Source: Halorubrum sp. Hd13
Lineage (GTDB): Archaea > Halobacteriota > Halobacteria > Halobacteriales > Haloferacaceae
NCBI RefSeq assembly: GCF_002252755.1
Contig: NZ_NHOY01000069.1
Location: 1-64,000 of the forward strand
Length of the DNA stretch: 64,000 nt
Reading direction: 5' to 3'
Below are positions 1,228 through 9,598 of this stretch, in pieces (position 1 is the stretch's first letter; each line of letters begins with the position of its first letter). Made by a program: the position numbers and the translations under genes. The notes under the pieces are model-generated. The model searched no databases and had not been told where the DNA came from. It saw only the letters and a program-made list of their open reading frames with translations.

Positions 1228-2694
1228 ATGAGCCAAGACACAAACGACACAATCGGACTCTCGCGGCGCAAGCTGCTCGCCGGCCTCGGGGCCGTCGGCG
1301 TGGCCTCCGCGGGCGCGGGACTCGGTACCACGGCGTACTTCAACGACACGGAGACGTTCCAGGGCAACACGCTCACCGCGGGCGAGCTCGACCTGAAGCT
1401 GGACTACCGCGCAACGTACGCGGGCGGGACCGGGCGCATCGACGAGATCAACGGCTGGTATCCGGACTTCGACGTCGTCGAGGAGGAAGAGGGGGTCTAC
1501 CTCATCGGCGAGGCCCCGAGCATCGACGAGCCTGACGCTTGGGAGGACGAAGTCCAGACGCGCGACTTCTGTCTGCCCGACGTGGGACTGGTCAACGGCG
1601 ACGAGATTCCGGTCTTCGTCCTCGATGACGTGAAGCCCGGCGACTGCGGCGAGGTGACGATCAGCCTCCACATCTGTGACAACCCCTCGTGGGTGTGGAT
1701 GAACGGCGAGCTCACCGAGAACGCCCAGAACGGGTACTCGGAGCCCGAGCTGGAGGCGCTCGCGGAGATGGGACTGGATACGGACGACTCCGACGGCGAG
1801 GGTCAACTCGCCGACGCCATCGACGTGACGATGTGGTACGACGAGAACTGTAACAACGTCCTGGACGCCGACGCCGAGGAAGCAGGAGATTCGGTGTGCG
1901 TTCAGCTCGTGATCGACACGTCCGGGTCGATGGGCGGCAGCCGCCTCGACAACACCAAAAGCGGTGCCATACAGCTCGCACAGACAGTCCTCGACGCGAA
2001 CCCCGACAACTTAGTTGGGGTCACCGAGTTCGACAGCAGCGCGGACACCGTTCAGACGCTGACGGACGAGTTCGACGCCGTCGAAGACGCGATTAACGGA
2101 CTGAACGACGGTGGCGGTACCAACGCCCAAGCCGGCGTGGACGAAGGACAGGCCGAACTCGAGAACTGCCCCCCCGACGAACGCGTGATGGTCGTGTTCG
2201 GCGACGGCGATATCAACACCGACGGCCAGGCCGCAAAAGACGCCGGAACCGATATCTACGCGATCGGCGTCGGCAACGCGAGCTTCGATGACCTCGAAGA
2301 CCTCGCCAGCGTACCGCCGGAGGACTACGTGTTCTTCGCCACCGACGACGACGCGATCGAGCAGGTGTTCGGTCAGGTCGCCGAGACGATCACGGTCGGC
2401 GAGGAGATCATCTTCGAGGGTTCGCTCGCGGACGCGATGGCGGAGCTAGAAGCGGGAATCGCGCTCGACGGTAACCGGTCTGTCGAGGGTCGACAGCCCT
2501 ACGAGGGCGGCCTCACCCAATGTATCGGCTTCGAGTGGTGCCTGCCGGCCGAGGTCGGCAACGAGGTCCAGACCGACTCCGTGGCCTTCGACCTCGGCTT
2601 CTACGCCGAGCAGTTCCGGCACAACGGCGACCCGCAGGTGACGTTCAACGGGACGCAGGCGAACAGCACCAGCACCGGAAACGTGTCCCAGTAG
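1228..2694 (+). CDS. SipW-type secreted TasA-like protein with inserted vWA domain
   Basis: A 488-residue protein. The ATG at 1228 follows a purine-rich GGGGGAGAAAGC and puts the signal at the N-terminus. Residues 10-45 form a SipW-dependent signal: an SRRKLL twin-arginine-like start, a hydrophobic stretch, then GTTAYFNDTETF and NTLTAGELDL, the pattern seen in TasA/camelysin proteins. A beta-rich region ends near WYDENCNNV. A von Willebrand A domain follows (about 225-395) with the MIDAS motif DTSGSMG. The TasA-like chain then resumes at GSLADAMAELEAGIALDGN and closes with FDLGFYAEQFRHN. The vWA therefore sits inside a loop of the host fold. Probable surface fibre subunit with a metal-dependent adhesion domain. 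First of five related genes. Function inferred from fold and context. Confidence 0.85.
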   Translation: MSQDTNDTIGLSRRKLLAGLGAVGVASAGAGLGTTAYFNDTETFQGNTLTAGELDLKLDYRATYAGGTGRIDEINGWYPDFDVVEEEEGVYLIGEAPSIDEPDAWEDEVQTRDFCLPDVGLVNGDEIPVFVLDDVKPGDCGEVTISLHICDNPSWVWMNGELTENAQNGYSEPELEALAEMGLDTDDSDGEGQLADAIDVTMWYDENCNNVLDADAEEAGDSVCVQLVIDTSGSMGGSRLDNTKSGAIQLAQTVLDANPDNLVGVTEFDSSADTVQTLTDEFDAVEDAINGLNDGGGTNAQAGVDEGQAELENCPPDERVMVVFGDGDINTDGQAAKDAGTDIYAIGVGNASFDDLEDLASVPPEDYVFFATDDDAIEQVFGQVAETITVGEEIIFEGSLADAMAELEAGIALDGNRSVEGRQPYEGGLTQCIGFEWCLPAEVGNEVQTDSVAFDLGFYAEQFRHNGDPQVTFNGTQANSTSTGNVSQ

Positions 2695-2774
2695 ACACGC
2701 GACTCCGAGCGGGACACCCGCTCCCCCGGGCGACGCTCGCCCGGTTCCCGGTTCGGCGCCTTCGGGCGGCCGAC

Positions 2775-2813
2775 GCGGCGGTTCGCGACCGCCGCCGGGA
2801 GTTCCCTTCGGGG
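2775..2813 (+). promoter_or_regulatory. Twin hairpin leader before second fibre gene
   Basis: Two adjacent inverted repeats end 10 bases before the ATG at 2824. The first pairs GGCGGT (2777-2782) with ACCGCC (2788-2793). The second is TTCCCTTCGGGGA (about 2802-2813). The same pair, with the same spacing to the start codon, precedes the next paralogue at 4248-4287. Nothing comparable lies upstream of other genes in the window. Confidence 0.55.
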
Positions 2814-2823
2814 ATGATACACA

Positions 2824-4179
2824 ATGAACGACGACAAAATCGGACTATCGCGGCGCAAGATGCTGGTCGGACTCGGTGCGGTGGGCGTGGCCTCCGCTGG
2901 CGCGGGCCTCGGCACCACGGCGTACTTCAACGACACGGAGTCATTCAACGGCAACACGCTGACGGCCGGCTCGCTCGACCTGTTCGTCCACGTCGACTAC
3001 TCTGAGGATCAGGGCAGTTACGCGCAGTACTCGACGCCCCCGGGAAGCTTCATCAACGGCAACGTCGTGGGGCAGCTTGACGACGGCGAAATCGTCACGC
3101 AGGAGGGCGAGGGTCTGAGCATTCAGGTCTCCGACCTGAAACCCGGCGACTCCGGTGAGGGCGAGTTCTGTTTCTCGATCGTCGACAACCCCGCGTACAT
3201 GTGGATGTGCGGCGAGGTGACCGCAAACGACGAGAACGGGCAGAATGAGCCCGAGATGGATTCGGGCGACGAAAGCACTGACGTGGGCGAACTCGCCGAC
3301 GCGATGCAGGTGACCGTCTCGTACTGCACCGACGGCGACGAGGATGATGGCGAGGAGATCGTCTCCGGCTCGCTCGCGGACGTGATGAGCGCGCTCGACA
3401 ACGGCGTACCGCTGTCGGGCGACGGAGACGCGGACGCGCCTATCGCGGACCGCCCCGCGTTCGAGGGCGTGGCTGCGCCCTTCGACGACGACAACGAGCC
3501 GGTGATCGCCGAGCAGTGCGTCTGCTTCGAGTGGGAGGTTCCCTTCGAGGTCGGCAACGAGATCCAGAGCGACTCCGTCGAGTTTGACTTCGAGTTCTAC
3601 GCGGTGCAGTCGCGTCACAACGACGGGACGCACAACCCCTGCATCACCTCCCGCGAGGTCGAGGGCTTCGGCAAGTTAGACTACGATGACGCCGACGTAC
3701 TGTGGGCCTCCAAGGCGCGCAACGGCGGCTCCAACACCTTCGAGCTGATCGTGGGCGACGACAACACGAACGCCGACACCGCTGACTACGACTTCGGCGG
3801 CAGCAGCTTCGACGGCGAGCTGACGGTCGCGTACGACGCCGACACCGGCGAAGCGACCCTCGAAATCGCGAACGGTACCACCGCTGACGTCAGCTACGCC
3901 GTCAGCAACGCCGCCGGCGACGTGATCTCCATCGTCGCGCGCGGCGACGACGCGAGCCACCTCGCGAGCGTCTCGAACGTCCGGGTCAACGGGAGCGCCC
4001 CGAGCGGCCCCGACGCGGTCGAAGCCGACGGCGCAGAGACCGTCTCCCTGCTGATCGAGGACGTTGACGCCAGCGCCGACTGGGAACTGACCGCGGACGT
4101 GGCGTTCGAGGGCCTGGACAACGACCCGAGCGCCTCGGACGAGAACCCCGCGGTGTACGTCGAGGTGATCGACGCGTAG
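2824..4179 (+). CDS. SipW-type secreted TasA-like protein with C-terminal beta domain
   Basis: A 451-residue protein. The N-terminus repeats the signal of its neighbour almost exactly (LSRRKMLVGLGAVG, then GTTAYFNDTESF and NTLTAGSLDL). The TasA-like region runs to about residue 265 and ends in VGNEIQSDSVEFDFEFYAV with QSRHN. There is no vWA domain: the chain goes straight from VSYCTDGDEDDGEE to GSLADVMSALDNGVPL, which marks the loop where the paralogues carry theirs. About 185 further residues form a separate beta-rich region (FELIVGDDN, DGELTVAYDADTGEATLEI, ending VYVEVIDA), which looks like an added interaction or anchoring domain. It has many Asp/Glu and no C-terminal membrane anchor. Probable major fibre subunit or adhesin; role inferred. 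Confidence 0.8.
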   Translation: MNDDKIGLSRRKMLVGLGAVGVASAGAGLGTTAYFNDTESFNGNTLTAGSLDLFVHVDYSEDQGSYAQYSTPPGSFINGNVVGQLDDGEIVTQEGEGLSIQVSDLKPGDSGEGEFCFSIVDNPAYMWMCGEVTANDENGQNEPEMDSGDESTDVGELADAMQVTVSYCTDGDEDDGEEIVSGSLADVMSALDNGVPLSGDGDADAPIADRPAFEGVAAPFDDDNEPVIAEQCVCFEWEVPFEVGNEIQSDSVEFDFEFYAVQSRHNDGTHNPCITSREVEGFGKLDYDDADVLWASKARNGGSNTFELIVGDDNTNADTADYDFGGSSFDGELTVAYDADTGEATLEIANGTTADVSYAVSNAAGDVISIVARGDDASHLASVSNVRVNGSAPSGPDAVEADGAETVSLLIEDVDASADWELTADVAFEGLDNDPSASDENPAVYVEVIDA

Positions 4180-4247
4180 GCGAACGCGCCGCGGCGGGGG
4201 GGGGCGCTCCCCCATCACCCACACCGGACCCGCGCGGGCGGCCGGAA

Positions 4248-4287
4248 CGGCGGTTCGACTCCGCCGGTGGGACTTCCCTACGGGGAA
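4248..4287 (+). promoter_or_regulatory. Twin hairpin leader before third fibre gene
   Basis: CGGCGG (4248-4253) pairs with CCGCCG (4261-4266), followed by the perfect inverted repeat TTCCCTACGGGGAA (4274-4287), which ends 8 bases before the ATG at 4296. It matches the arrangement at 2775-2813, with changes that keep the pairing. Possible roles are RNA processing, translation control or partial termination within the operon. Confidence 0.55.
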
Positions 4288-4295
4288 TTACACTC

Positions 4296-6023
4296 ATGGA
4301 AAATAAAGACAACATCGACACGATCGGACTCTCGCGGCGCTCGATCCTCGCCGGCCTCGGCGCGGTCGGGCTGGCGTCGGCGGGCGCGGGCTTAGGCACC
4401 ACGGCGTACTTCAACGACACCGAGTCGTTCGACGGCAACACGCTCACCGCCGGCCAGCTCGACCTCTTGGTCGACTGGCAGCAGACGTACGACTTCGGCG
4501 AGGGCCGCCACTTCGTCAGCGCGCACCCCGACCACGACGGCGACGGCGAGCAGTCGATCGCCGCCGACAACGACGCCGGCCAGATCAGGTACAGCGACTT
4601 CCCGGACGAGACCGACGATGACAGCAACGGAGCGAACATCCCCGTTCTGGACTGCGAGAACATCCCGCCGCTGTCGGAGGCGAAGTTCAACATCGACCCC
4701 GTCACTGGTGAGGAGATGGACAAGCTCGTCCAGCTCACCGACGTGAAGCCCGGCGACTCCGGCGAGATCACCTTCTCGCTGCACCTCTGTGACAACCCCG
4801 GTTACATCTGGATGCAGGCGGGCAACGTCAGCGACGACGGCGGCACCGAAACCGAGCCCGAACTAATCGTCGACCCCGATAACCTCGGCGACCTCGGCGA
4901 CGCCATCCAGGCGACGCTCTGGTACGACGAGGACTGCGACAACGTGTACGACGGCGCGGAGCCGGTCGACATCATGCTCACGCTCGACTTCTCGGGCTCG
5001 ATGCTGTACGACCAGTACGGCGGCGTCGTCAGCGACGACGACATCACCGTCGGCGGGACCACCTACTCCGAGACGACGAAGATCGACCTCGTCGAGCTCG
5101 GCACCCGCCAGTTCGTCAGCTACCTCCAGTCGCAGGGCTCGGACGTTCAGGTCGGCGTCGCGTACTTCGACGGCGATAACGACGGGAACCCGCGCGTGGG
5201 ACTACTTGAGCCTCTGACGGTCGACCTCGACGACGTTGACGCGGCGCTCACCGGGCTCCGTCAGAAGCTCGCGAACGTCGTGAGCGGTCCGACGAACGAC
5301 CCGAACGTCAACGAGGGGGATCCGGACCCGTTCTCCAACGCGAGCAACATCGCGACCGGGACGTACATTGGCGCAGGCGTCGATGTCGCGCAGGAAGAAC
5401 TCACCGACAGCGGCCGGAGTGGCGCGGAAAAGCGCAACATCGTCCTCTCCGACGGTGAGTCGTTCAACGGCTCCGGTGGCTCTTCGTTCGCCTCTCCGGA
5501 AGATGCTGCGACCAGCGCGCGCTTAGGGCCGGGCGGAGAGATTCCCCCGTCGCCGCCTTCAGTCGAAACCGACGTCTACACGATCAACGTCGACGGCAGC
5601 GCCGCCACGCTACAGGCGATGGCGGGTCCGGCCGGCGGGTCGGGCGGCGACCCGACGTTCTTCAACGACGTCAGCGATCCGCTCAACATCCCATCGGTGT
5701 TCGGGAACCTCGCGGCGCAGACCGGACAGGAGAAGGTCATCATGGACGGCTCCCTCGCGGACGTGCTCGACGCGCTCGAGGACGGCGACGGGATTCCGCT
5801 CGACGGGAACCGGTCGACGCCGTACGACGAGTTCGACGACGACCCCGCCGACGCAAACCGCGAGCCGTTCGCGGGCGACGGCGTGATGCACTGCGTCGCG
5901 CTCGAATGGGAACTGCCGTTCGACGTGGGCAACGAGGTCCAGGGCGACACGCTCGGCTTCGACCTCGGCTTCTACACCGAGCAGGCGCGCCACAACGACG
6001 GGGCGGGACCCCAGTCGGCCTGA
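4296..6023 (+). CDS. SipW-type secreted TasA-like protein with inserted vWA domain (larger)
   Basis: A 575-residue protein with the same SipW-type N-terminus (SRRSILAGLGAVGLASAGAG, GTTAYFNDTESFDGNTLTAG). The TasA-like part runs to LWYDEDCDNV, is interrupted by a vWA domain (about 225-475; MIDAS DFSGSM, later TGTYIGAGVDVAQEEL), and resumes at MDGSLADVLDALEDG. It closes with VGNEVQGDTLGFDLGFYTE and QARHN. The insertion point equals that of the first gene, but this vWA is longer, with extra loops rich in Gly, Pro and Ser. Probably secreted and processed by the signal peptidase encoded downstream. The third of three full-length paralogues in tandem. Paralogy is directly visible; adhesive function is inferred. 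Confidence 0.83.
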   Translation: MENKDNIDTIGLSRRSILAGLGAVGLASAGAGLGTTAYFNDTESFDGNTLTAGQLDLLVDWQQTYDFGEGRHFVSAHPDHDGDGEQSIAADNDAGQIRYSDFPDETDDDSNGANIPVLDCENIPPLSEAKFNIDPVTGEEMDKLVQLTDVKPGDSGEITFSLHLCDNPGYIWMQAGNVSDDGGTETEPELIVDPDNLGDLGDAIQATLWYDEDCDNVYDGAEPVDIMLTLDFSGSMLYDQYGGVVSDDDITVGGTTYSETTKIDLVELGTRQFVSYLQSQGSDVQVGVAYFDGDNDGNPRVGLLEPLTVDLDDVDAALTGLRQKLANVVSGPTNDPNVNEGDPDPFSNASNIATGTYIGAGVDVAQEELTDSGRSGAEKRNIVLSDGESFNGSGGSSFASPEDAATSARLGPGGEIPPSPPSVETDVYTINVDGSAATLQAMAGPAGGSGGDPTFFNDVSDPLNIPSVFGNLAAQTGQEKVIMDGSLADVLDALEDGDGIPLDGNRSTPYDEFDDDPADANREPFAGDGVMHCVALEWELPFDVGNEVQGDTLGFDLGFYTEQARHNDGAGPQSA

Positions 6024-6201: not shown

Positions 6202-6987
6202 ATGACACAAAAGGAATCGAAACTCACGCGGCGGGAGGCACTCGCGGGCGTCGGAGCCGTCGGCTTCGCGACCCTCGGGGCCGCCTCCGGACGGCGAACG
6301 GGAACAGACAGCTGGGGTGAGTATACGGACTACACCTACGCGCAGACCGACCAGCCGTGGGACCTGCTCGTCGGCTGGCGGCGGACCGAGAACGGGATGG
6401 TCGTCGATTCGAGCCCGACGGACGCCGAAGACGACGTCGAGGCGGCCGGAATCCGTCTCGTCGACGTCGACAACGCCCTGCCCCACGACACCGGGACCGC
6501 GAGCGTGGGCCTCCGCTTGGAGGACCCCGCGGGCGTAGCGCCCGACGGCGTCCGGGTGTGGCTGAAGATCGGCCCGGCCCTCGACGGCCCCGACGTGAGC
6601 GCGGTCGACCGCGCGCTCGCCGACCGCATCCGGCTGGAGGTCCGGTACGACACCGGCCTCCTCGGGGTCGGCGCGTGCGCGGGCGCCGAGAGCGACTTCG
6701 CCGGCTACGGCGAGCTGATCGCCGCCGGCACGCTCGCGGAACTCAACGCCGACCCGGTGGCGACGGGGATCGAACTCGATCCCACGCTGCTCGGGAACGG
6801 TTGTCTCACGACCGAGGAGCGCCGCTGTCTGACCTTCACCTGGGAGTTCGACGGGGAGGACGGTAACGCCGGACAGGGCGGTGCCGTCGACTTCGACGTG
6901 CGGTTCGCCGCCGACGAGTGCGGCTCCGAGGGGAACCCCTTCGACCAGAACGAGACGACCGGAGACACCAGTGAGGGGCCACTATGA
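6202..6987 (+). CDS. Divergent TasA-like secreted protein
   Basis: A 261-residue protein starting at the ATG at 6202. The N-terminus has a TRREALAGVGAVGFATLGAA export signal, but the AYFNDTE/NTLTAG block of its upstream neighbours is lost. The middle aligns by motif (GTLAELNADPVATGIELD corresponds to GSLADV..L..G..LDGN). The end, VDFDVRFAADECGSEGNPF, corresponds to the FDLGFYAEQ.RHN close of the paralogues. Conserved Cys residues and an Asn/Thr-rich tail suggest an extracellular product. The last codons overlap the next start (ATGA), so the two are probably translationally coupled. It may be a minor or capping subunit of the presumed fibre; that is inference. Confidence 0.65.
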   Translation: MTQKESKLTRREALAGVGAVGFATLGAASGRRTGTDSWGEYTDYTYAQTDQPWDLLVGWRRTENGMVVDSSPTDAEDDVEAAGIRLVDVDNALPHDTGTASVGLRLEDPAGVAPDGVRVWLKIGPALDGPDVSAVDRALADRIRLEVRYDTGLLGVGACAGAESDFAGYGELIAAGTLAELNADPVATGIELDPTLLGNGCLTTEERRCLTFTWEFDGEDGNAGQGGAVDFDVRFAADECGSEGNPFDQNETTGDTSEGPL

Positions 6988-8435
6988 CCCCCGGAAACGA
7001 CGCGGGACGGCGCCCGAGCCGCCTGAGCCGGCGCCGGCTCCTCGCGAGCATCGGCGGCGTCGGCGCCGTCGGGATGGCGAGCGGCCTCGGGACCGGCGCG
7101 TACCTCTCGGACCGCGAGACGTTCCCGGGCAACGCCTTCGGCGCCGGCGAGGTCGAGCTGGTCGTGGACACCGCGATCTCCGACGGGACCTTCGCGGTCG
7201 ACGTGTCGGGAATTGGACGCGGCCCGGACAAGAGGGCCTCCGACTCGTTTAATGTCGAAGTTCGGACGAACCCCGCCAGGGTCTGGCTCGCGGCGAAGTG
7301 TCCCACGGTCAACGACGACCTTTCGGACGCCCTCGAAGTCGACGTCCGCGTGGACGGGAGTTCGATCACGGGCGGGTTCCGCTCGTTCGCCACGGTCGCT
7401 GCCGAACTCGTCGACGGCGAACGGATCGACACCGGCTGTCTCGATCCCGAGAGTCCGATCGAGGTCGAGGTCTTCGCGGAGCTCCCCGTCGACGCGCCGG
7501 ATTCGCTGTCTGGACAAAACACTTCACTCTCGTTCCGGCTGTACGCCGAGCAGTGTCGCCACGTCTCCGAGGCGGACGCGGCGGGGTCGAACCCCTTCGC
7601 CGACCGGGTCTGTGAGGAGTCGGAGAACGAGTGCCTCGCGTGCGACGACGAGTTCGGGAAGGCGGAATTCGGCGACTCGCCGGTCGCGGTCGGGGACACG
7701 CTCTCGCTGATCGAACTCCCCGCGGGCGCGGACGGTCACGAGATCGCTATCACCGCGGTCGAGACGAAAGACGAGGGGGGCAACGCCGAAACGGTCGGCG
7801 TCGAGTTCACCCTCCAAGACGCCGACGGGAACCCCCGACCGGACATGTGCAAGGTCGAGATCAAGGGCGGGCAAGAGACCGAGTCCTACGAGATCGACCC
7901 GGCGTCTCCGGAGACGGGTAAGATCGTGTTCGCGCCCCTGAAACCCGACAAGGACAAGCGACACGGGATCAGCAACATCGTCGTCTTCGTCTGTTCCGAT
8001 TCGGGCGACGGCGACGACCCCGACGAGGACGAGACGGTCGACTGCGTCGTCTGCGACGACGAGAACGCCTCGCTCGCGACGCTCGACGTCCGCTACCGCG
8101 GCGACGACGAGCCGTCGGTCACCGTCGTCTCGACGAAGGGGGGCACCGGCGGGACGCTCTTCGAGGGCACGGTCGCCGACGGGGACGTGTTCACCCTCGA
8201 CGGGAGCGACGTGACTCGGAGCGGGAACAACGGCAACGGAAACGGCGGCGGCCAGACGGACAGACTCGGTCCGGAGGTCGAGATACGGGTCGAGGGCGGA
8301 GCGACGACCCCGATCCACGTGAGCTGCTCGGAGCTGCTCGCGGTCGGGATGCGGTTCGGACCCGACGACGAGTTCGAGATCGCGGGCGGAACGACCACTG
8401 ACGAGAGACCGATATGCGGCACGGAGGCGAACTGA
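6984..8435 (+). CDS. SipW-type TasA-like protein with DUF7467-like C-terminal domain
   Basis: A 483-residue protein with a recognisable SipW-type N-terminus (SRRRLLASIGGVGAVGMASG, GTGAYLSDRETFPGNAFGAG). A shortened TasA-like region ends in LSFRLYAEQCRHV. Two added domains follow: a beta-rich section at about 215-340 (FGKAEFGDSPVAVGDTLSLIEL), and after DCVVCDDENASLATLDVRY a domain resembling haloarchaeal DUF7467, with LGPEVEIRVEGG, IHVSCSELLAVGM and FEIAGGTTT. A Gly/Asn linker lies near residue 430. Its start overlaps the preceding gene by ATGA and its stop overlaps the signal peptidase start (TGATG), tying these proteins to their presumed processing enzyme. The DUF assignment is from memory of the motif. 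Confidence 0.75.
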   Translation: MTPGNDAGRRPSRLSRRRLLASIGGVGAVGMASGLGTGAYLSDRETFPGNAFGAGEVELVVDTAISDGTFAVDVSGIGRGPDKRASDSFNVEVRTNPARVWLAAKCPTVNDDLSDALEVDVRVDGSSITGGFRSFATVAAELVDGERIDTGCLDPESPIEVEVFAELPVDAPDSLSGQNTSLSFRLYAEQCRHVSEADAAGSNPFADRVCEESENECLACDDEFGKAEFGDSPVAVGDTLSLIELPAGADGHEIAITAVETKDEGGNAETVGVEFTLQDADGNPRPDMCKVEIKGGQETESYEIDPASPETGKIVFAPLKPDKDKRHGISNIVVFVCSDSGDGDDPDEDETVDCVVCDDENASLATLDVRYRGDDEPSVTVVSTKGGTGGTLFEGTVADGDVFTLDGSDVTRSGNNGNGNGGGQTDRLGPEVEIRVEGGATTPIHVSCSELLAVGMRFGPDDEFEIAGGTTTDERPICGTEAN

Positions 8436-9598
8436 TGACACAACTACTCACATCACCACGGACGAAACGCGCGGCGAACGTACTCGGGATCGTCCTACTG
8501 ATCGCGCTCGTCGCGCCGTTCGCGGTGTACGCCGCGCCCGAGATCGTCGGCGCCGACGAGAGCTTCGTCGTGCTCACGGCGAGCATGACGCCCGCCATCG
8601 CGCCGGGCGACGTGGTGATCGTCGCCGATCGCGACCCGACGACGGTCGTCGACGGCGACGTGATCACGTTCATGCGCGGCACGAGCGAGGTGCCGGTGAC
8701 GCACCGCGTGATCGACGTCGTCGGCGAGGGCGGGACCCTCGCCTTCGAGACGATGGGCGACGCGAACGAGGGGCCGGACCCGGGGCTCGTCCCCGCCGGG
8801 AACCTCGTCGGCGTGGTCGCGCTGACGATCCCGTACATCGGGTACGTGATCCAGTTCGCGGGCACGCAGGCCGGATTCGTCGCGCTGGTGCTGCTCCCGT
8901 TCGGCCTGCTCGCGGTCACCGAGGTCTGGTCGATCGTTCGCGGCCGCGAGGAGGCGGACGGGGGGTCGGACGCGCCGGACTCGCCTGACGCGACGGCCGA
9001 CGGAGTCGTCGACGCGGACGCGACCGCGGCGCCCGTCACCGCGGCGTCCGCCGGGACCGACGCGGCAGGCGTCGAGACCGCCGAAACCGACGTGACGCCC
9101 GCAGAGACCGCCGCGACCGGTTCCACGGGAGTCTCCGTCGACGCGGTCGGCGGGGCGGCGGCGGTGTTGCTGGTGTTCGCGCCGTACGCGACCTACGTCG
9201 CGGTCCAGCTCCGCACCGCCGCGGCCATCGCGGTCGCGGTCGCGGCGGCGACGCTGCTGCTCGGCGCGCTCGCGACGTGGGTGCCGGCAAGCGGCGTCCT
9301 CGACCGGAACCGACCGAGCGCTGAGGCGGCGGACGACGACACGGCGAGCGACCGCGCGGAGAGCGGCGATACCGCGGACGACGGGGCGGATGACGACTAC
9401 GTGGCGAGCGCCGAGAGCGGAGCGGAGGGGGCCGAGCGCGGAGCGGAGGGGGCCGAGCGCGGAGCGGAGGGCGACGACGGAACGACTGACCCGGTCGATC
9501 CGTCGGGATCGGTGGCAGTGACGGACGGGTCCGGGGCGCGTCAGTCGCCGTCGACGACCCCACCGTCACAGCCGGACCGCGCCGGGGAGGTGGACTGA
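8435..9598 (+). CDS. Signal peptidase I, archaeal/ER type, with extended C-terminus
   Basis: A 387-residue protein from the ATG at 8435, overlapping the upstream stop by one base. An N-terminal membrane helix is followed by the catalytic serine in TASMTPAIAPGDVVIV and the VTHRVIDVV block, where His replaces the bacterial lysine. This is the archaeal/SEC11 and SipW class. GDANEGPDPGLVP follows, and then a second membrane segment. Beyond the usual end of the family come an acidic Ala/Thr/Glu-rich linker, two more membrane helices (about 235-285) and an acidic tail with a tandem GAEGAER repeat. Position after the SipW-type substrates argues that this is their dedicated peptidase. Class confidence is high; substrate assignment rests on context. 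Confidence 0.88.
   Translation: MTQLLTSPRTKRAANVLGIVLLIALVAPFAVYAAPEIVGADESFVVLTASMTPAIAPGDVVIVADRDPTTVVDGDVITFMRGTSEVPVTHRVIDVVGEGGTLAFETMGDANEGPDPGLVPAGNLVGVVALTIPYIGYVIQFAGTQAGFVALVLLPFGLLAVTEVWSIVRGREEADGGSDAPDSPDATADGVVDADATAAPVTAASAGTDAAGVETAETDVTPAETAATGSTGVSVDAVGGAAAVLLVFAPYATYVAVQLRTAAAIAVAVAAATLLLGALATWVPASGVLDRNRPSAEAADDDTASDRAESGDTADDGADDDYVASAESGAEGAERGAEGAERGAEGDDGTTDPVDPSGSVAVTDGSGARQSPSTTPPSQPDRAGEVD
9415..9475 (+). repeat. 21-bp tandem repeat in signal peptidase tail
   Basis: Nearly three copies of a 21-base unit (around AGCGGAGGGGGCCGAGCGCG) encode repeated GAEGAER in the acidic tail of the signal peptidase. The unit length keeps frame, so copy number could vary without breaking the gene. 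Confidence 0.75.

Follow-up and report, generated by a model that had tools for sequence, protein, structure and literature searches.

The window analysed here, a stretch of 64,000 nucleotides from Halorubrum sp. Hd13 (positions 1 to 64,000 of the forward strand of the 68-kb contig NZ_NHOY01000069.1), carries near its left end three tandem paralogous genes, designated genes 1, 2 and 3. All three encode a SipW-type signal according to model TIGR04088 (E 1e-7 to 1.6e-7), and their signal regions are near-identical. They share a domain, referred to below as the host domain, that is related by profile comparison to TasA of Bacillus subtilis, and that in genes 1 and 3 is interrupted by a von Willebrand factor A (vWA) domain containing a metal ion-dependent adhesion site (MIDAS). 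The start of gene 1 was set at 1228, the family start MSQDTND; the open reading frame itself opens at 1129. The three genes and the relevant parts of them are as follows.

1228-2694, + strand: gene 1, predicted SipW-dependent TasA-like subunit with a nested vWA; host part at residues 37-210 and about 396-467.
1897-2400, + strand: nested vWA of gene 1, residues 224-391 (PF00092 1.2e-17; MIDAS D-T-S-G-S ... T ... D).
2824-4179, + strand: gene 2, predicted insert-free TasA-like subunit; host residues 34-267, followed by a C-terminal domain (weak choice-of-anchor W match).
3319-3366, + strand: short loop of gene 2, 16 residues, at the vWA site of genes 1 and 3.
4296-6023, + strand: gene 3, predicted SipW-dependent TasA-like subunit with a longer nested vWA; host part at residues 38-216 and about 481-568.
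4953-5735, + strand: nested vWA of gene 3, residues 220-480 (PF00092 9.8e-4, under the cut-off; MIDAS D-F-S-G-S ... T ... D).

An earlier note on this DNA had claimed that the vWA domains of genes 1 and 3 are inserted between the motifs WYDE(N/D)C(N/D)N and GSLAD, that gene 2 goes directly across the same point, and that the two inserts are unequal in length. All three claims were confirmed. The junction motifs are present, and a profile of the host domain matches gene 2 once and without a break (residues 34-267, corresponding to profile positions 1-225), but is split in gene 1 (residues 37-243 and 358-467) and in gene 3 (residues 38-247 and 469-568) into two pieces flanking the vWA. If the loop is measured from the first W as far as the G of GSL, it comprises 195 residues in gene 1 and 276 in gene 3, versus 16 in gene 2. 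AlphaFold2 models, based on 60 relatives for gene 1 and 58 for gene 3 (mean predicted local distance difference test score 82.9 for both; predicted template modelling scores 0.80 and 0.74), agree with this. The vWA of gene 1 lies between host strands 199-204 and 394-399, and that of gene 3 between host strands 205-210 and 481-486. Since additional host strands lie C-terminal to it, the vWA is internal in both models and not a terminal domain, the arrangement that would have spoken against the earlier claim. The nesting is not due to chance either, because a vWA occupies this loop in about 114 members of a non-redundant set of 261 relatives, drawn from 50 fetched regions and 69 named loci.

As a separate observation, an acidic motif resembling a calcium-binding loop, WYDxDCDN, lies right before the insert (codons 203-210 of gene 1 and 209-216 of gene 3). 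It is matched in 107 of the 115 vWA members, versus 8 of 123 insert-free members.

By fold, the gene 1 vWA comes closest to that of Mfa5, a pilus tip protein of Porphyromonas (VIA Z 25.5 over 171 residues). For gene 3 the best score (VIA Z 20.9 over 183 residues) is a tie between the vWAs of Mfa5 and of PTMP1, a mussel byssus protein. The clear fold match, together with the presence of all five MIDAS residues, makes the assignment of the gene 3 vWA secure despite its weak Pfam score. Genes 1 and 3 have the complete set (D-x-S-x-S ... T ... D), as do 103 of the 111 loop vWAs, which suggests that the site is retained by selection. On the strength of the MIDAS, the vWA is predicted to be a metal-dependent binding head; surface sugars, S-layer proteins or matrix proteins are guesses as to its ligand.

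Across the 261 family members the length of the loop stretch has a bimodal distribution. The vWA was detected inside the loop by a profile hidden Markov model in 111 members, and three divergent inserts were added by motif. One candidate, L078_11018, had been called a vWA member by motif scoring only and was rejected, the profile hidden Markov model being used instead. The loop also accommodates another type of domain: in four members it contains a beta-propeller-like repeat domain, whose best Pfam match (9.9e-6) is slightly under the cut-off. In four other proteins the vWA is not in the loop but follows the host at the C-terminus. Domains also occur at other positions of the host, as in L047_10624, which has a choice-of-anchor L domain in another part of it, and in about nine members with another domain inserted after the GSL helix.

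L058:8625-10415 (- strand), L084:6396-8144 (- strand), L094:9612-11360 (+ strand), L128:833-2569 (+ strand): members with a beta-propeller-like domain in the loop.
L038:10538-12346 (+ strand), L063:6381-8147 (- strand), L138:10688-12442 (+ strand), L153:9837-11588 (+ strand): vWA at the C-terminus, after the host.
L047:10624-13005 (+ strand): choice-of-anchor L domain (3.2e-61) before the vWA loop.

According to motif scoring, a C-terminal extension is nearly absent from members with a loop vWA (114 of 117 are short) but present in 87 of the 123 insert-free members. Public annotation names such proteins by their signal or vWA domain only. The earlier note had left the choice between a single insertion, followed by duplication and loss, and a tolerant loop that accepts adhesion domains. 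The second option is favoured, given that the loop contains a vWA, a beta-propeller or nothing, and that vWA modules have been swapped between hosts (see below).

The relationship of the host domain to TasA was traced in two steps. A profile of 27 insert-free haloarchaeal hosts had TasA as its best match in the PDB; this match covers most of the domain and is weak (E 0.0059). An intermediate profile was made from short SipW cargos of other lineages in the phylum, mostly open frames of 200-300 residues and too short to hold such an insert, together with two short haloarchaeal ones. This profile aligned to the haloarchaeal host with a value of 3e-39 (hhalign), and the profile of the short archaeal cargos had TasA as its sole match in the PDB (2.9e-5); PDB searches with single short archaeal cargo sequences found no relative. 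By profile comparison, then, the host domain is homologous to TasA over the whole mature domain, weakly when the two are compared directly and strongly through the intermediate profile. As regards the jelly-roll fold of TasA, the models of genes 1 and 3 are beta-rich, but vWA matches filled the lists obtained in structural searches, and the link to TasA is one of sequence profiles.

TasA fibres are assembled by donor-strand exchange, in which a flexible N-terminal strand pairs with a C-terminal strand (PMC9674648, PMC10151520). Of the 115 vWA members, 111 retain the N-terminal assembly-strand motif and 92 the C-terminal one. In the model of the gene 1 monomer residues 21-50 are disordered, and the TasA donor strand is likewise disordered before assembly (PMC10151520). 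No pilin or sortase-pilus Pfam family was found in the carrier at E values up to 1; it has a SipW-type signal instead.

We consider it rather probable that genes 1-3 encode modular TasA-type fibre subunits that assemble by donor-strand exchange and display MIDAS adhesin modules. The products would be haloarchaeal subunits of the TasA/camelysin type, exported with a SipW-type signal that the SipW-like peptidase encoded in the locus would remove. Outside the cell they would polymerise, probably by donor-strand exchange: the N-terminal strand YFNDTE..F..N.LTAG would be donated to the following subunit and complete it next to the C-terminal strand NEIQ.DSV.FDLGFYAEQ of that subunit. The TasA-like domain of genes 1 and 3 would serve as carrier, and the loop vWA with its intact MIDAS as a metal-dependent binding head on the fibre; gene 2 is an old insert-free paralogue bearing a C-terminal domain instead. 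The nesting, the vWA fold, the MIDAS, the homology to TasA, the use of the loop in relatives and the exchange of modules are computed results, from which we infer polymerisation, binding, the ligand and a position at the tip or in the shaft.

Several points weigh against this interpretation. The direct match between host and TasA is weak, chance matches to immunoglobulin (Ig) domains score almost equally, and the link depends on the intermediate profile. In addition, the host was likened to TasA by sequence profile, the structure searches having returned vWA matches. A fibre made of these proteins is as yet a prediction. Finally, it is the MIDAS that argues for binding by the vWA, and vWA domains are also found in chelatases and intracellular complexes.

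The position of the vWA subunits within such a fibre is the point on which the strongest alternative differs. In-line incorporation in the shaft, which would give the display along the filament suggested in the earlier note, is possible, because both assembly-strand motifs are kept in the vWA members. The closest relatives of the vWA, and the type IV pilin PilB, point to a tip location. It could be that, like Mfa5 or SpaC, the vWA subunits are present only at fibre ends as tip adhesins or initiators, one per fibre, on an insert-free shaft. The best fold match of both vWAs is indeed a pilus tip protein, Mfa5 (tied with PTMP1 in the case of gene 3), PilB, which has a vWA module, is thought to be at the tip (PMC8179133), and a large head might hinder packing of the shaft. 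However, the vWA members have kept both the donor and the C-terminal strand motifs, one of which a pure cap could lose (TapA, for instance, cannot accept a donor strand; PMC10151520), and many loci encode several vWA members, two of the three main genes carrying a vWA here. We regard an exclusive tip location as unlikely, although it is the alternative to be taken most seriously.

Somewhat less likely still is that the products are not fibre subunits at all but single SipW-processed surface proteins, such as S-layer-associated sensors or metal binders, that share with TasA only the domain. Assembly of the products of genes 1-3 is deduced from sequence, many members have large C-terminal domains, and a SipW-type signal marks a route of export and not polymerisation. 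These arguments are countered by the homology to TasA, which spans the whole domain, by the conservation of the donor-strand motif, and by the combination of tandem paralogues and a dedicated peptidase, as in Bacillus.

Over evolutionary time the loop has acted as a socket, in which the vWA is replaced by recombination and the carrier is kept. The earlier note had proposed separate trees of the host and vWA domains, and these are in conflict, which supports swapping of modules. Over all pairs, host identity and vWA identity are correlated (r 0.86), but there are outliers in both directions: some orthologous hosts are 80-89% identical and have vWAs that are only 41-52% identical, and some hosts of about 40% identity have vWAs that are 60-68% identical. 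Along gene 1, most of the DNA before and including the WYDE codons shows about 85-95% identity; the value then drops to some 50-70% and is again at least 90% past GSLAD; the recovery on the right-hand side is gradual, and the right breakpoint is therefore less sharp. No such break between host and vWA identity was seen for gene 3. The vWAs of gene-1-type hosts do not form one clade (p-AU, approximately unbiased test, 3e-8), although their hosts cluster. One example is L146, whose vWA sits with the type C vWAs, a clade belonging to another host (support 100), while its host groups with that of L052 (support 100/99; alternative rejected, p-AU 2.7e-9). As judged from these alignments and trees, recombination has replaced vWA modules in hosts that were themselves retained.

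The pattern might be explained without exchange if the gene 1 vWA evolved much faster than its host under diversifying selection. The overall correlation of the two identities fits such a model, and adhesin heads can evolve quickly. Nevertheless, at equal host divergence the vWA identity to gene 1 is about 79% for L050 or about 46% for L044, and rapid change does not account for the lack of a single clade of gene-1-type vWAs or for an L146 vWA within the vWA clade of another host. We consider this explanation improbable.

With respect to the history of the three paralogues, all sequences with a loop vWA and those with other insert types are on one side of a single branch of the host tree, and gene 2 is on the opposite side, among insert-free sequences. 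In a careful host tree of 52 sequences the types represented by the three genes are separate, and each occurs in several genera. Forcing the trio into one clade was rejected (p-AU 5e-4, and 5.9e-7 in the 52-sequence test), but a clade of genes 1 and 3 was not (p-AU 0.125). The gene 2 lineage constitutes a separate clade that extends over many genera and has no vWA in this loop. Eleven further fetched loci, some of the same species, have the gene order 1-2-3. The separate host lineages and this recurring order lead us to conclude that the three genes are distinct paralogues that have long existed side by side. An arrangement grouping the insert clade with the gene 2 group was not rejected by the approximately unbiased test and gave a better tree than the quick search had found; gene 2 is therefore given no fixed deep position. 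The family tree is without a root, as rooting by distant archaeal cargos failed through long branches. The remaining option of the earlier note, one insertion followed by local duplication of the vWA gene and then loss in gene 2, would fit the tandem order and the near-identical signal regions, and the unplaced root would allow a much older loss on the gene 2 branch, but with the single clade for the trio rejected and gene 2 inside an insert-free clade of many genera it is the least probable of the alternatives.

Other genes surrounding the trio are listed below.

213-821, - strand: upstream gene, divergently oriented; DUF7344 winged-helix-type protein (PF24035 5.7e-26).
6202-6987, + strand: gene 4, divergent, with a TasA-like C-terminal half (host profile 1.3e-9); no TIGR04088 match.
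6984-8435, + strand: gene 5, SipW signal (TIGR04088 4.6e-4), divergent host domain (host profile 3.8e-10) and C-terminal DUF7467 (PF24269 1.6e-7).
8414-9598, + strand: SipW-type signal peptidase I (TIGR02228 6.7e-29, above the cut-off).

The peptidase also matches NF046067, the Bacillus SipW model, at 1.9e-28, which is under the cut-off of that model. TIGR04088 scored above its cut-off for genes 1, 2, 3 and 5, and no other SipW-signal genes were detected in the genome of 3.8 Mb; the peptidase is likely to process these four products. The gene after it encodes a small acidic protein that is hydrophobic near its N-terminus. The DUF7344 protein is a possible regulator. Despite its TasA-like C-terminal half, gene 4 has neither a SipW-type signal nor the donor-strand motif, features with which it could be a terminal or anchoring subunit. 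A scan for bacterial promoters and terminators found nothing, as may be expected for an archaeon. The closest named relative found is Halorubrum xinjiangense (87% identity for gene 1). H. sodomense also has this locus, and H. saccharovorum has genes of types 1 and 2.

The regions between the cistrons of the trio contain tRNA-like elements.

2746-2814, + strand: upstream of gene 2, a tRNA-like element with a T-arm and a possible acceptor stem, plus a small hairpin.
4210-4286, + strand: upstream of gene 3, a tRNA-like element with a T-arm and a possible acceptor stem, plus a small hairpin.

Their T-arms, GGCGG-TTCGCGA-CCGCC and GGCGG-TTCGACT-CCGCC, respectively, are followed by the small hairpin and the start codon; no T-arm element is present upstream of gene 1. 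Such elements lie upstream of about half of the family genes in L035-L153. A T-arm precedes 107 of 136 internal cistrons versus 23 of 123 first cistrons (Fisher 5e-23), against a background of 0.8% of random 150-nucleotide windows. The outer three pairs of the T-stem, the loop and the two inner pairs being fixed by definition, follow standard pairing in all but 3 of 106 elements (103 of 106) and covary, alternating among GC, AU, CG and GU. Pairing of the acceptor stem was hardly above that of shuffled partners, and we therefore claim the T-arm alone. ARAGORN found no complete tRNA with D and anticodon arms in the window, and there was no Rfam tRNA match. Because RNase P and tRNase Z of Haloferax cut engineered tRNA-like elements (PMC4946936), the elements may, by analogy, be tRNase Z/RNase P processing sites that separate the cistrons.

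A more general scheme, which we put forward tentatively, is that of a plug-in display: the loop socket would swap vWA and beta-propeller heads between species, other loops would take other domains, differently headed subunits of one operon would share a fibre, and the tRNA-like cleavage elements would separate the mRNAs and set subunit ratios. Extending the idea of the modular pilin to archaeal TasA-type fibres, the family is a concrete candidate, found widely, for the adhesive fibres of haloarchaeal biofilms. A domain-accepting loop inside a presumed polymerising subunit makes the cargo tolerance of a fibre directly testable, and likewise whether archaea vary adhesins by swapping heads between species.

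Each component is already known separately: pili with vWA heads, archaeal fibres of a TasA-like kind, and modular pilins. An open-access search, with subscription journals mostly outside its scope, found no literature on vWA-bearing haloarchaeal TasA-like proteins, nor any report of vWA and TasA-like domains combined, of a single loop that takes different domains, or of exchanged heads. TasA-related donor-strand fibres have been reported from an archaeon (cited in PMC9715654 and PMC9674648), and the passages on them in these papers mention no vWA insert. The pilus tip adhesins Mfa5, SpaC and PitA contain some of the vWAs most similar in fold (Z 25.5 and 20.9 for Mfa5), but their carrier domains and assembly route are different, and genes 1-3 have no match to such Pfam families. 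PilB of Streptococcus sanguinis (PMC8179133) likewise combines a polymerising module with a MIDAS-containing vWA head that is probably an adhesin; its carrier fold is unrelated, however, and its vWA is appended C-terminally instead of being nested in a loop as in genes 1 and 3. TasA of Bacillus subtilis (5OF1, 8AUR; PMC9674648) has in common with the haloarchaeal proteins a SipW-type signal, a SipW peptidase in the locus, a domain homologous by profile, and conserved N-terminal donor-strand and C-terminal strand motifs. It differs in having no inserted vWA or C-terminal domain, and polymerisation of the haloarchaeal proteins is by comparison presumed. In the TasA-CalY heterofilaments of Bacillus cereus (PMC13082335), for which the text searched does not mention a von Willebrand domain, several SipW-processed paralogues of one genomic region co-assemble, and these provide a model for a shared fibre of genes 1-3. 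Taken together, the locus is likely to be an archaeal counterpart of bacterial adhesive pili.

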